Below are positions 26,693 to 62,062 of a stretch of 64,000 bases of DNA, piece by piece (position 1 is the stretch's first letter; each line of letters starts with the position of its first letter). A model generated the notes under the pieces. The model saw nothing but the letters and a program-made list of their open reading frames with translations, made no database searches and was not told where the DNA came from. Source of the stretch: Malassezia japonica. Its lineage: Eukaryota > Basidiomycota > Malasseziomycetes > Malasseziales > Malasseziaceae. Where the stretch lies: positions 372,001 to 436,000 of the forward strand of contig NC_083371.1 in NCBI RefSeq assembly GCF_029542785.1. Reading direction: 5' to 3'. Made by a program: the position numbers and the translations under genes.

Positions 26693-27653
26693 CTACTCCT
26701 CGCCGACCTCGGGATCTGGCAAGCGGACAAATGCGGCAAAGAACTTGTCGCCCGCATTCCGCTCGACTTTGCGTCCCTCCTCGGTGCTGTATGTCACCGC
26801 ATCCACACACGGGTCGTCGGCGAGCTCCTCGTCCGGAATCCGGCGAAAGAGGGGGAAGTTGGTCAGGTGCTTGACCATCCACTCGTGCAGGTCGCGCACG
26901 TCGGTAATCGTGTAGACGATGCCACCCGGGCGCAGGACGTATGCGTACTCGGCCAAAAGAGTTGGCGAGATAATGCGCGCTTTGTGCTTCCGCGCCTTGA
27001 AGTGAGGGTCGGGGAACAGGAAAAAGATCTTGCTCAGCTGGCCCTGCTCGAAAAAGTTCGGCAGGAACTTCATCGCGTTCGAGCGGATCACGCTAATGTT
27101 CTGGTAGCCTCCCGCGACGTGGCCCGCCTCGGCGACCATGCGCTCGTTTTGCTGGCGCTCGTCGGCGTCTTCGTCGATCTCCGCCGCCTCGGCCGCGGCA
27201 GGCGCCGAGGGCGCGTCGCCGTCCTTGGCCTGCTTGTGTGCGAGACGCAGCGCAAGGATCTTGTCGTGCACGTACTGCGTCACCTGCGTCCGGATCTCCA
27301 TGCCGAGCATGAGCGTGTCGGGGAACAGCGGCGCGAGGCGCATCAGCAGGCCGCCGAAGCCGCAGCCAATGTCGGCGAATTCCACTTTTTTGCTCACCGT
27401 GCCATCCGCAGCAGGCGCACACAGCTCGGGATAGTGTGCGGTCCAGTCCATGTCGGAAGGCTCCTTGGGGCTGGGTTAGGCGGGGAACGTACTATACGAG
27501 CGAATGGTCCGAGAAGGGGTTCGCGTGGGCACGTTGTCTGTACCACCGCTTCTGCGGAATCACGACGCGCCCCGCAATCGCATTGGGGTGCTGCGCTTCC
27601 TGCTCGAGCGCGATCGTCTGCGCCGCGTCCTGCACGCGCTTCCGCTTGCCCAT
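26693..27653 (-). CDS. TRM8: tRNA (guanine-N7-)-methyltransferase catalytic subunit
   Basis: Forms m7G46 in tRNA together with Trm82. The 312-residue product has an N-terminal basic stretch, the signature [15 protein letters not shown], the SAM-binding loop [18 protein letters not shown] and the [13 protein letters not shown] segment. An acidic, Ala-rich insert (about [13 protein letters not shown]) lies between strands. A 22-nt intron (27471-27492) follows SLVY, and the frame is only continuous if it is removed. It is divergent from the NDUFB10-like gene (107 bp). Confidence 0.93.
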
Positions 27654-27760
27654 CGTGCGAGAATTGGCAGCGAGCGCCGGCGTTTTCGGTCGACTCGGCC
27701 GAGCGACGGTGGGTCGAAACCGCGTCGCCCGCTTTGGCCGTCGGCACCATTGTCAACGCG

Positions 27761-28053
27761 ATGAGTCTGAACGTCACGCCTGAGAGCACGGCCGGTACGT
27801 GGCCAGCCAGTATGCTAATGCAGCGAACAAGGAGCGGCAGGCCGAGTCGATCCGCGACGAGTGGATCAAGGTCATGCAGATCCGTCTCGTGCGTGAGGAG
27901 CTGCAAAAGTGCTACCGTGCCGAGGGCGAGAACCACTACCAGGTGTGCGCGCCGATCGTGAGCGTGTACGACGATCTGCTCAAGGAGGCCAAGGTACGTG
28001 GGCAAGGAGAATCTTACACGCAGGTCAAGGGCTACCGCACCATCGATGCCTAG
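27761..28053 (+). CDS. Complex I subunit, NDUFB10 (PDSW) like
   Basis: Accessory subunit of mitochondrial NADH dehydrogenase, 77 residues, with ESIRDEWIKVMQIRLVREEL, a Cys in QKCYRAEGENHY, QVCAPIVSVYDDLL and the ending KGYRTIDA. Exons are 27761-27794, 27824-27993 and 28024-28053. Introns are 29 nt and 30 nt. The 30-nt intron has no stop and keeps frame, so unspliced mRNA would add ten residues. The family call rests on the spaced Cys pattern and final motif. Confidence 0.78.
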
Positions 28054-28275
28054 GCTAGCATCGTAGACCTTTTACTGCATCCGATGAAAAGAGGGCGTGC
28101 GTGCCCGTGACATGGGCTGTGGGGCGACGGCAGCAAAGCGAGCGAACAGGAGCAGGCGCAGCCAGGCTGGTTTGCCTGTGAAACTCTTCAGTATCACACG
28201 TCCATAGTTTGTGCTACGGCGTTTTGTGCCGAGCCATGTTGGTATATCAAACATTTGCATTACCAACGGATCTAT

Positions 28276-59182: not shown

Positions 59183-60217
59183 CTACGCGCTCTTCACGTG
59201 ACCTATCCAAAGACGCACCGACGCGTCCTGCTCGAGGCTGGCGGTGGCGAGGAGCGGCAGTGTGGGATGGACCTGGGTAAGAGGGGAGACGTACCGCAAC
59301 CGCTGCCACCGTATCGCAGTGTCCAGAGAGCACCTGCGTGATCTGGCGCGTCTGCAGGTCCCATAGGTATACGTGGCGGTCTTCGCTCCCTGCGACGATC
59401 CACGTGGTCGGCCGGCCAGCGGACGGCAGGTAGACCAGCGCGGCGTTGCCCGCGTACTTGGTATTCGCGTGCCCGGTATAGGTCTTGAGGATGCGTGCGT
59501 TGGCCAGGTCCCAGAGGCGCACTGCGCTGTCGAGCGACATGGCGAGCACTTGCAGCGACGACGGCGAGAATTTCACCGAGGCGACCGGCGCCTGGTCGCC
59601 GTGCTGCAGCGTGCGCAGGCAGTGTCCTGCGCTGGTATCCCATAGGCGGCTGTGTGAGAAGAAGAGCAACGTACATTAGGCCGTCGTACGAGCACGAGGC
59701 AATCATCGTGCCGTCGCTGCTAAAGTCGACGCCGGTCACCGCTTCCGAGTGCGCGGCAATCGTGCGGTGGCACGTCCCGCGCTGCAGGTCCCATAACCGG
59801 ATCGTCTCGTCAAACCCGCCGCTGACCAGCAGCGTGCTCAGGGGGTGGCATGCGATGCAAAAGACATAAGACGTGTGCCCTTCGTACGTGCGCACAATTT
59901 TTCCCTGTGTGAGCCACGACACGTACCGTTTCGAGCTCCCAGACAAGCACCGTGCGGTCGTCGGATGCACTCACGACGTACTGGCTGTCACGCGTCCAGC
60001 AGACGGCATTCACGCCGCCGGTATGGCCTTGCAGGGTATGTTGGAGGCGGCCGGTGCGCGTCGCCCAGACCTGCACGGCCTTGTCCGCGCCGGCGGTCGC
60101 GAGGTGCTCACCGTTCGGCGAGAACACGGCGCTGGCGACAGACCGCGCGTGCCCGTGCAGCGTATAGAGCAGCTCGTACTGCATCCCCGGCGCCTCGACG
60201 TCCATCGCGTCAGCCAT
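59183..60217 (-). CDS. WDR5/Swd3-like WD40 protein (COMPASS subunit)
   Basis: Seven-bladed WD40 protein of 321 residues close to WDR5: TLHGHARSVASAVFSPNGEHLATAGADK, VNAVCWTRDSQYVVSASDD, VFCIACHPLSTLLVSGGFDE and RLWDTSAGHCLRTL. The later blades include LKTYTGHANTKY, WIVAGSEDRHVYLWDLQT and SGHCDTVAAV. Homologues hold the H3K4 methyltransferase complex together. Exons are 59927-60217, 59675-59904, 59295-59649 and 59183-59272; introns are 22, 25 and 22 nt. Start codons of this gene and RPB4 are 27 bp apart. Confidence 0.9.
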
Positions 60218-60244
60218 TGTGGAGGAAATTCGTCTCCCTCCACG

Positions 60245-60759
60245 ATGGCGCAGCCGGCCTTCCAGCGGCGCCGCCGCGGCAATGCGGAAGTCGAAGACGC
60301 GAGCCAAGGCAAGCTTGGCCCCGAGTTCCAGGACGCGGGGTGTCTGCTCATTTCCGAGGTGCACCTCTTCTTTTCGCGCCCCGGCGAGATGACCGGCGAG
60401 CGCGAGGCGGGCGCTTCGGGCGTCGCCCAAAAGACCAAGGAGTACGTCGACGAATTCAGTCGGTACAAGGAGCAGTCGACGATTCGTGAAGTGCGCGCGT
60501 ACGTATTCTATCTCACACAGTCTCTTGATTAAGCACGCCGCGCAGCCGGACCTCGACGGGAGCACCGCAGACGACAAAGGCCTGCAGCTCTCCCAGTTTG
60601 AGATGGCACAGCTGGCGAACCTCGCCATCTCGGACGTGGACGAGGCACGGACACTCATTCCTACGTACGTCTCACTGCTCACGCAGCCTGGCAAACAAGG
60701 ATGACGCACAGCTCGAGTCGCTCCTCAACGAACTCGCAGCGATCCGCAAGTTTGCCTAG
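60245..60759 (+). CDS. RPB4: RNA polymerase II subunit Rpb4
   Basis: Stalk subunit pairing with Rpb7, 156 residues. The N-terminal GPEFQDAGCLLISEVHLFF and the central TKEYVDEFSRYKEQSTIREVRALL match Rpb4, as does the helical C-terminus LSQFEMAQLANLAISDVDEARTLIPTL ending in IRKFA. Exons are 60245-60498, 60521-60664 and 60687-60759; both introns are 22 nt with CTCAC branch sites. Its TAG stop is directly followed by the stop codon of the convergent rhomboid gene. Confidence 0.95.
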
Positions 60760-62062
60760 TTATCCATACTGCGGCGCAGGCTTGCCGTGCCGGAACTGCG
60801 CCGCGAACCGCTTGGACGCGTTCCACACTGCACTCCCGTACAGATAGTAGAGCAGGCCAAAGAGCGCGCCGCCGAGATGCGCAACATGATCAAAGAGGCG
60901 CCAGCCGCGCACGATGCCCAGGATGTCGACCAGGACCAGTCTGGGTTAGCCGCAATACGCACCCTGCCATGCCCCACTGGATAGGGATCGCAGTAAAGGG
61001 GAGAAAAATGATGCTTAGGCTCGCCTGGGGGTACGCGCACGCAGACAGCACAAACGCCGCATAGATCGCACCGCTCGCGCCGAGACTCGCGCGCTGCGCA
61101 AGCTGCATGAGCTCGGCGGTGGCCGCGCGGATCTGCGCACCAAGCTGGGGGCGCTGAGAGGATGCGGCGCGATGCAGCATGCGCGACGCGTCCTTGATGC
61201 GCTGGACGGCCATGCGCCAGCGCCCGGCCGTCACGAGATGGCTCGTGAGCGAGGCAAAGGCGCCGGCCGTCACAAAGAACGCCAAAAACTGGGGGAGCGG
61301 CGACGCATCCGGCACGCTTGCTTTGCGACTCTCCCACGCCTGCTGGAGCGCCAGCGTGCTCAGTGCGCTCCCGCCGACCGACCACAAGGCGAGGTTGTTA
61401 AAGAGAAAGTGCCCGGCAGCCTTGTGGCTAAAGACGGACGTAAGCAGCGTCACCACGCGCCCGGACGATGGGCGATGTGTCATGCAGCGCTGCATCCACG
61501 CGGCCGTGCCGAGGCGCGGCGCCGCGAGCCACGCGAGGAACACGCCGGCATTCAGCGCGACGACCGGCACAGCAGCGCGCTTGTACGCGGGCTGGTCCGC
61601 GTACCACTCGGCGGCGCTCATGCTCATGCGCAGAATGGGGCTTCGCACGATCTCGGGAAGGAATTTCGTGTTGCGCGCGAGCCACGCAAGGCGGCGGTTC
61701 GCCTGCGCCACGAGGTCGTCCTCGGCGGCGTCGCTCAGGCGTTGTGTGTCGTACTGATCCGCAAACATGGACGTGATCGGCGCAAAGAAGCGTGCAGACG
61801 GGTTCTGTGCGAGGCACTCGGTCTTGGACACGGACCATGCGGCGCACCCCAAAAAGCTCACCGCCGCGACGCTGCCGACGAAGCCGAGTGCGCGGCCGAT
61901 CGGCGGCTTGACGACTACGTCGCCGGTTTGCGTGCGCGGCGGTGCAACGACACGTCGCAGCTCCTCGTACTCTTTTGGATCAGCACGGCGCGGCGCGAGG
62001 CGCGGCCGCACCCAGAGCCGCGCGAGCGGCGGCGCGCTATGAAATCTTCGTACGCCGTACAT
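60760..62062 (-). CDS. PCP1: Mitochondrial rhomboid protease (Pcp1/PARL)
   Basis: Inner-membrane serine protease that in yeast processes Ccp1 and Mgm1. The 426-residue product starts with an Arg-rich presequence (MYGVRRFHSAPPLARLWVRP). One membrane segment lies upstream of a rhomboid core with SHKAAGHFLFNNLALWSVG, the catalytic Ser in LGASGAIYA and the catalytic His in DHVAHLGGALFGLLYYL. A 22-nt intron (60941-60962, GTGCGT donor) splits the last third. The ATG at 62062 is used because the frame upstream begins with TTG. Confidence 0.93.

Follow-up and report, generated by a model that had tools for sequence, protein, structure and literature searches.

Genes in a 64,000-nucleotide (nt) stretch of the Malassezia japonica genome (contig NC_083371.1, positions 372,001 to 436,000; here called the window) are interrupted by GT-AG elements of 22 or 23 nt, which on the evidence of the DNA sequence are almost certainly spliceosomal introns. 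A preliminary description of the window, made from its letters, had already read them as introns, and in our analysis reading frame, motif and homology agreed with this identification. Genome-wide counts given below cover 8.43 megabases in 9 contigs, with the window lying in contig 2. A sample of 264 kilobases (kb), consisting of the window and 200 kb out of three further contigs, was employed for the scans and frame tests.

The sample was scanned with a relaxed pattern, in which the donor GT[A/G]NGT was paired with a CTNAY-N(0-15)-YAG end, and the reversed sequence served as the control. At exactly 22 nt there were 85 motif pairs (1 in the control), and at 23 nt there were 18 (2 in the control). 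Each length from 24 to 39 nt held 1 to 8 pairs, and the lengths of 14-21 nt pooled held 6, the same as the control (6). The length peak at 22 nt was sharp and one-sided, with a very steep lower edge. Within the window, 33 elements of 22-23 nt carried both the donor and the branch motif (26 of 22 nt and 7 of 23 nt), and the reversed control held 1. The class therefore stands as first described and all the coordinates named for it hold a 22-nt GT...AG element, but the relaxed scan gives 33 in place of the "at least 35" that had been claimed.

A strict form, GTACGT-N7-CTNAC-N-CAG, was counted genome-wide, and other lengths were obtained by varying the number of middle bases. It occurred 1,784 times at 22 nt (control 0), 65 times at 24 nt (9 middle bases; control 0), 2,234 times over 16-46 nt (1-31 middle bases; control 15) and 5 times over 15-21 nt (0-6 middle bases; control 3). 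The five candidates below 22 nt were 17-20 nt long. Three of them were compatible with the reading frame, one being 18 nt and hence uninformative for frame, and none was convincing as a true intron. Among 165 introns decoded in the sample, 95 were of 22 or 23 nt, 68 were longer and 2 were of 21 nt; 22 nt was the mode, which bears out the earlier description of the class as dominant.

The 22-nt peak was also obtained by a motif-blind decoder, which knows codon usage, ATG, stops and GT...AG and has no preference for motif or length. It found 24 introns at 22 nt; when the dinucleotides were swapped to TG...GA or GA...TG, 1 and 2 were found. Its total over all lengths (108) was similar to those of the swapped-dinucleotide controls (109 and 96), which leaves the 22-nt peak as its one informative feature. 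The donor was GTNNGT in all 24 and GTACGT in 18 of them. CTNAY-N-YAG stood at positions 14-22 in 23 of the 24, leaving a constant, short distance of one free base between branch motif and YAG, and the branch motif was present in 26 of the 28 motif-blind introns of 22-23 nt.

Reading frame was then compared with the elements removed or retained. Among the 85 22-nt elements that carry the motif, 75 fitted removal, 5 retention and 5 neither; when both flanks were clearly coding, the numbers were 54, 0 and 1. For the 33 elements of the window, tested with 60-nt flanks, removal fitted 27, retention 5 and neither 1. The six misfits were at 28635, 33162, 34249, 34286, 36298 and 36473, and in several of them the flank enters a neighbouring intron or passes a very short exon. 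Those at 28635 (at the very edge), 33162, 36298 and 36473 lie within stretches matched to homologues or Pfam domains. The two SAC1 misfits (34249 and 34286) are without such cover, and the frame test speaks against them. Decoding gave 134 gene models, some with visible errors, and its introns longer than 50 nt are probably often false. The errors included fusions (WD40 with kinesin, and the COQ11-like gene with the one next to it) and a spurious N-terminal extension of the ARP9-like gene; the RPB4 and PCP1-like genes were overlooked.

A homologue or a Pfam domain runs over 20 of the 33 window junctions (Table 1). Solved kinesin-5 structures aligned without gaps across both 58677-58698, which lies in the P-loop, and 58972-58993. 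Prp19 homologues with solved structure span the junctions at 36298, 36473 and 36712; alongside 36473 there is a one-residue gap in three of the four solved-Prp19 alignments shown, with the fourth gap-free, and five fungal relatives are gap-free there. Solved SSU72 homologues are continuous at 50506, and a WD40 chain spans 59905, apart from a single-residue gap that lies two residues upstream. A further 13 junctions lie in Pfam stretches (two each for RPB4, the COQ11-like NAD-binding protein, the actin-related, MFS and thioredoxin-fold proteins and prefoldin, and one for rhomboid), where the support is the domain stretch and not a residue-level alignment, one prefoldin junction being at the edge. 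Removal of the introns had been said to restore conserved motifs in every case. This held for the 20 covered junctions, but "every" was too much, since the other 13 are uncovered and were assessed by motif and frame (11872, 25035, 27471, 33557, 34249, 34286, 34404, 43754, 44053, 46571, 56370, 56538 and 59273).

The nearest named proteins are from Malassezia (for PRP19, M. psittaci at 80% and M. furfur at 79% identity; for kinesin-5, M. furfur at 67%), in accordance with the fungal host proposed earlier. Over part of their length, both proteins also have metagenome-type matches at 96-97% identity (P0004 for PRP19 and P0121 for kinesin-5). P0121 (96% identical), the product of an unspliced gene caller, starts just past the P-loop junction, and at its other end the residues STSHSLPS are the translation of the window intron 56538-56559. 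The P-loop is uninterrupted in six annotated Malassezia kinesins. M. caprae PRP19 (P0005) has eight extra residues where the first PRP19 intron of the window sits, and back-translation of these residues allows a 24-nt intron that stays in frame and has a donor, a branch motif and a final TAG, as did 2 of 3,000 random nine-residue pieces. M. furfur PRP19 (P0003) is without a stretch (an exon) ending at the 23-nt junction of the window. These comparisons of sequences suggested that intron positions are common to the relatives and that public gene models have suffered at these sites. Gene callers whose minimum intron is longer than 22 nt will damage models in this way, as seems to have happened in the PRP19 of M. 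furfur and M. caprae. Separately, kinesin-5 is annotated as fused to a WD40 protein in P0124, P0125 and P0129 (M. psittaci, M. yamatoensis and M. sp. CBS 17886). This fusion, which the decoder also made at 54927-60217, is probably a gene-prediction error.

The 85 elements of 22 nt share one plan. The donor is mostly GTACGT, with C at +4 in 68 of 85; CTNAC occupies positions 14-18 and YAG positions 20-22. Position +8 avoids A (2 of 85), +9 avoids G (1 of 85), positions 9-11 are loosely pyrimidine-biased, and on the exon side there is a weak preference for G preceding the donor (41 of 85). The presumed branch A lies 17 nt from the donor and 5 nt before the final G, as had been proposed; it was at position 17 in 88 of the 165 decoded introns and at position 16 in 1. 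Among the 147 decoded introns of up to 50 nt, one free base separated the branch C from YAG in 107 and none did so in 1. The weights of this decoder favour one free base, so these branch-to-end distances lean on them, and only the 23 of 24 from motif-blind decoding is independent. The 23-nt class has two forms: nine introns carry the additional base upstream of the branch site and eight carry it downstream. The phases of the 22-23-nt introns are even (31, 31 and 33).

It is highly probable, judging from these features, that the elements are U2-type introns which have shrunk to the shortest form that the spliceosome of this fungus accepts. An extended donor and a branch motif complementary to U2, with frame restored in 75 of 85 elements and protein in 20 of 33 junctions, are what U2-type introns would show. 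U12-type introns have the donor RTATCCTT and the branch TCCTTRAC; this type was rejected, the donor being GTNNGT in every motif-blind 22-nt intron and the base composition of the 85 motif elements being different. The 22-nt introns would be recognised by a largely ordinary spliceosome, with U1 and U6 acting on the donor and U2 on the branch site. As 3' splice site it would take the first YAG past the branch, which is too near for a polypyrimidine tract. The length of 22 nt may then come from adding two separate minima: the branch A would need to stand about 17 nt from the donor, and the intron would need to end about 5 nt beyond it. Drift by deletion would pile introns at that floor, while longer introns persist in some genes. 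A mode on a steep lower edge is expected when shrinkage halts at a physical or functional floor, and the nine/eight split of the 23-nt class fits two separate minimum distances of 17 and 5. A stronger version, in which the lineage has a hard two-part ruler (at least 17 and at least 5 nt) made possible by a change in one of the components, U1 or a branching factor perhaps, seems rather unlikely to us. If it were true, most introns would sit on both limits, and the genome would measure the smallest intron path through this spliceosome.

Several points weigh against the shrunken U2-type interpretation. Splicing of the 22-nt class is itself deduced from genomic DNA. In Stentor, the branch A of the 15-nt intron is at position 10 (PMC9505925), so 17 nt would be the floor of this lineage and no general limit of spliceosomes. 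The decoded branch-to-end distances partly reflect the weights of the decoder, and the motif-blind decoder yields false introns at other lengths, as its total of 108 against 109 and 96 in the controls indicates. U1 was found neither by Rfam nor by pattern. The few candidates shorter than 22 nt may mean that the floor is not absolute.

The spliceosome was examined through U1, U2, U5 and U6 and four of its proteins. U6, U2 and U5 were each found as one gene above the Rfam cut-off, and U6 ACAGAGA, the branch-binding GUAGUA of U2 and the U5 loop are all canonical. The single U6 (L029 1501-1605, minus strand) contains one base more than the Rfam consensus in its intramolecular stem-loop, within the loop. 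Neither Rfam RF00003 nor a 5'-end pattern recovered U1 genome-wide; the Rfam search was silent in control genomes too, so absence of U1 is not established, and U1 is probably too divergent for the searches used. Since +4 is usually C, a matching change in U6 or U1 small nuclear RNA was looked for and not found: U6 ACAGAGA is unaltered, and a U1 pattern with G opposite +4 had 0 matches (control 0). All four proteins sought were found. Slu7 and Prp18 are present with family matches above cut-off and Prp19 is present, and the PRP19 and PRP18 genes themselves bear 22-nt motif introns. A U2AF65-like gene, matched exon by exon, scored 224 bits, below the cut-off of 310, in a family weakly positive in two bacterial control genomes. 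Loss of the second-step factors Slu7 and Prp18, which were undetected in the tiny-intron ciliate Stentor (PMC9505925), was thereby rejected, and loss of U2AF65 was not seen, given the below-cut-off match. Among this handful of parts there was no sign of a stripped spliceosome.

These results bear on whether the machine itself was rebuilt. A spliceosome remodelled for 22-nt introns, in which changed or lost factors shorten the bridge from donor to branch and the length is a built-in ruler, would account for the near-constant length and the very steep lower edge, and the extra base in U6 and the unrecovered U1 could be counted towards it. However, U2, U5 and U6 are canonical at the sites where they act, Slu7, Prp18, Prp19 and a U2AF65-like gene are present, and the 68 decoded introns longer than 23 nt mean that the machine is not restricted to 22; we regard this remodelling as improbable. 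The preliminary description had taken the class to imply an adapted spliceosome, and the components examined do not support that claim, which is unproven rather than excluded.

Copying of a mobile short intron, similar to introners, could also have spread one length and one motif frame to well over 1,000 elements, with the length reflecting a common source. However, the 78 decoded 22-nt introns are all different, and their seven middle bases agree at a mean of 2.2 of 7. M. caprae seems to hold a 24-nt intron at the same PRP19 position, which points to old introns altering their length, and the annotation of relatives, as protein and not as gene structure, is uninterrupted at the kinesin junction. 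Such copying is very improbable in our view. That the elements are not introns at all, and are DNA-level eliminated elements, sites of translational bypass or assembly errors, can draw on the fact that evidence for splicing here is at the sequence level. Its probability is close to nil: GT...CTNAC...AG is the hallmark of spliceosomal introns, unlike a TA-flanked element, the reading frames agree with exact removal of an RNA piece, and random assembly errors would not bear one motif 1,784 times. Shrinkage of U2-type introns is the interpretation that we prefer.

Short introns in Malassezia, and shorter uniform introns in protists, are already known. The median intron of M. restricta is 30 nt (PMC9241646, PMC6473144), "very short introns" are mentioned for the genus (PMC7426719), and the average reported for M. 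globosa is 76-79 nt (PMC4634964). Annotators of Malassezia genomes with short introns had to lower the minimum intron length to 15-20; the figures given are averages or medians, without a sharp 22-nt mode or a fixed branch position. Our searches of the open-licence literature turned up no fungus with a locked 22-nt class, although the proteogenomics study of M. sympodialis may already describe it. Within the same subphylum, Ustilago maydis shares a CTRAY branch motif, but its introns are about 95-127 nt and only about 30% have the motif (PMC2483917). Yarrowia lipolytica is also a fungus with its branch site fixed 2 nt from AG and without a polypyrimidine tract, but its introns are an order of magnitude longer, with a mean near 269 nt (PMC2483917).

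The precedents named earlier, a few ciliates and nucleomorphs, are known, but the list was incomplete, as mikrocytid introns of 16-17 nt, Trichomonas introns of 23-25 nt and comparable ones in microsporidia are also reported (PMC10245619, PMC12316389, PMC3629993). The type B introns of Trichomonas vaginalis (about 25 nt) are similarly short, have a conserved donor and couple their branch motif to the 3' splice site (PMC12316389, PMC2483917), and a 23-nt one was termed among the shortest known in 2025 (PMC12316389); however, there are 24 of 23-25 nt, compared with well over 1,000 of one length here. Mikrocytid (16-17 nt), chlorarachniophyte nucleomorph (18-21 nt) and heterotrich ciliate (15-16 nt) introns likewise vary very little in length and lie at the lower limit, but are even shorter, and the mikrocytid spliceosome is strongly reduced (PMC10245619). 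A uniform class of the mikrocytid type would have one or two lengths only, unlike M. japonica with its 68 decoded introns of over 23 nt. Paramecium and nucleomorph introns are described as lacking a branch-site signature (PMC2483917), unlike those found here. Irimia and Roy contrast genomes of short introns and weak motifs with intron-poor genomes of strong motifs (PMC2483917); in M. japonica some 2,000 copies combine shortness with a strong branch motif at a fixed place. Well over 1,000 introns of 22 nt on one plan would provide a clean natural test of the shortest intron that a spliceosome can remove, and their constant spacing of donor, branch and acceptor makes the minimal intron path testable by single-base additions or removals.

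The size classes are not mixed evenly. In 42 genes of the sample with at least two introns of 22-50 nt, the class agreed in 75% of 116 within-gene pairs compared with 54% after shuffling, and 0 of 10,000 shuffles reached this value. In the first 25.4 kb of the window 2 of 16 decoded introns were of 22-23 nt, compared with 25 of 39 in the remainder. Guanine-cytosine (GC) content was 0.634 around short introns and 0.600 around longer ones. Within the window, GC in most 5-kb bins of positions 1-25400 is lower (0.53-0.61) than past 30 kb (0.63-0.67). Genes for an L6-family ribosomal protein, MBF1 and TOM7 (14249-14952, 21944-22493 and 25362-25609) have only introns of 29-46 nt. These are usually well expressed genes, so expression perhaps matters, and its level may bear on the intron size class. 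Elsewhere in the window, at 360-7956, there are four adjoining secreted aspartyl-protease-like genes, two with long low-complexity inserts; PF00026 matches one of them, and the other three were judged by eye.

Table 1. Elements of 22-23 nt in the window, with strand and the evidence for each.
Element	Position	Strand	Evidence
22-nt intron, TRM8-like methyltransferase gene	27471..27492	-	motif, frame; gene by PF02390, junction beyond best domain stretch
23-nt intron, prefoldin gene	28635..28657	-	motif; frame misfit; edge of PF01920 stretch 10-111
22-nt intron, prefoldin gene	28522..28543	-	motif, frame; within PF01920 stretch
22-nt intron, NAD-binding COQ11-like gene, in glycine-rich loop	33162..33183	+	motif; frame misfit, next exon 55 nt; within PF01370 stretch 6-82
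22-nt intron, NAD-binding COQ11-like gene	33239..33260	+	relaxed motif, frame; within PF01370 stretch
23-nt intron, NAD-binding COQ11-like gene	33557..33579	+	motif-blind decoder; motif, frame
23-nt intron, SAC1 gene	34249..34271	+	motif; frame misfit; gene by PF02383, junction beyond domain stretch
22-nt intron, SAC1 gene, 14 nt past preceding intron	34286..34307	+	relaxed motif; frame misfit; beyond domain stretch
22-nt intron, SAC1 gene	34404..34425	+	motif, frame; beyond domain stretch
22-nt intron, PRP19 gene, first exon 13 nt	36298..36319	+	motif; frame misfit; solved Prp19 homologues align across
22-nt intron, PRP19 gene	36473..36494	+	motif-blind decoder; homologues across, one-residue gap in 3/4
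23-nt intron, PRP19 gene	36712..36734	+	motif, frame; homologues align across
22-nt intron, actin-related ARP9-like gene	40586..40607	+	motif-blind decoder; within PF00022 stretch, near edge
22-nt intron, actin-related ARP9-like gene	40766..40787	+	motif, frame; within PF00022 stretch
22-nt intron, variant branch CTAAG, PQ-loop protein gene	43754..43775	+	motif-blind decoder; frame
22-nt intron, PQ-loop protein gene	44053..44074	+	motif-blind decoder; frame
22-nt intron, MFS transporter gene	46052..46073	-	motif, frame; within PF07690 stretch
22-nt intron, MFS transporter gene	45987..46008	-	motif, frame; within PF07690 stretch
23-nt intron, SSU72 gene	50506..50528	-	motif, frame; solved SSU72 homologues gap-free across
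22-nt intron, thioredoxin-fold protein gene	54373..54394	+	motif, frame; within PF13462 stretch
22-nt intron, thioredoxin-fold protein gene	54874..54895	+	motif, frame; within PF13462 stretch
22-nt intron, kinesin-5 tail	56370..56391	-	motif, frame
22-nt intron, kinesin-5 tail	56538..56559	-	motif, frame; P0121 continues with translation of this intron
22-nt intron, kinesin-5 P-loop (GQTGTGK|T)	58677..58698	-	motif, frame; solved kinesin-5 gap-free; six Malassezia kinesins continuous
22-nt intron, kinesin-5 first strand (VVVRV|RG)	58972..58993	-	motif, frame; solved kinesin-5 gap-free
22-nt intron, WDR5-like WD40 gene	59273..59294	-	motif, frame; within range matched to WDR5 chains (range only)
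22-nt intron, WDR5-like WD40 gene	59905..59926	-	motif-blind decoder; WD40 chain across, gap two residues upstream
22-nt intron, RPB4 gene	60499..60520	+	motif-blind decoder; within PF03874 stretch; two in-frame stops if unspliced
22-nt intron, RPB4 gene	60665..60686	+	motif, frame; within PF03874 stretch
22-nt intron, rhomboid PCP1-like gene	60941..60962	-	motif, frame; within PF01694 stretch
22-nt motif element, no gene named	46571..46592	+	motif, frame only
23-nt intron, beyond the range first described	11872..11894	+	motif-blind decoder; frame
23-nt element, beyond the range first described	25035..25057	+	relaxed motif, frame only

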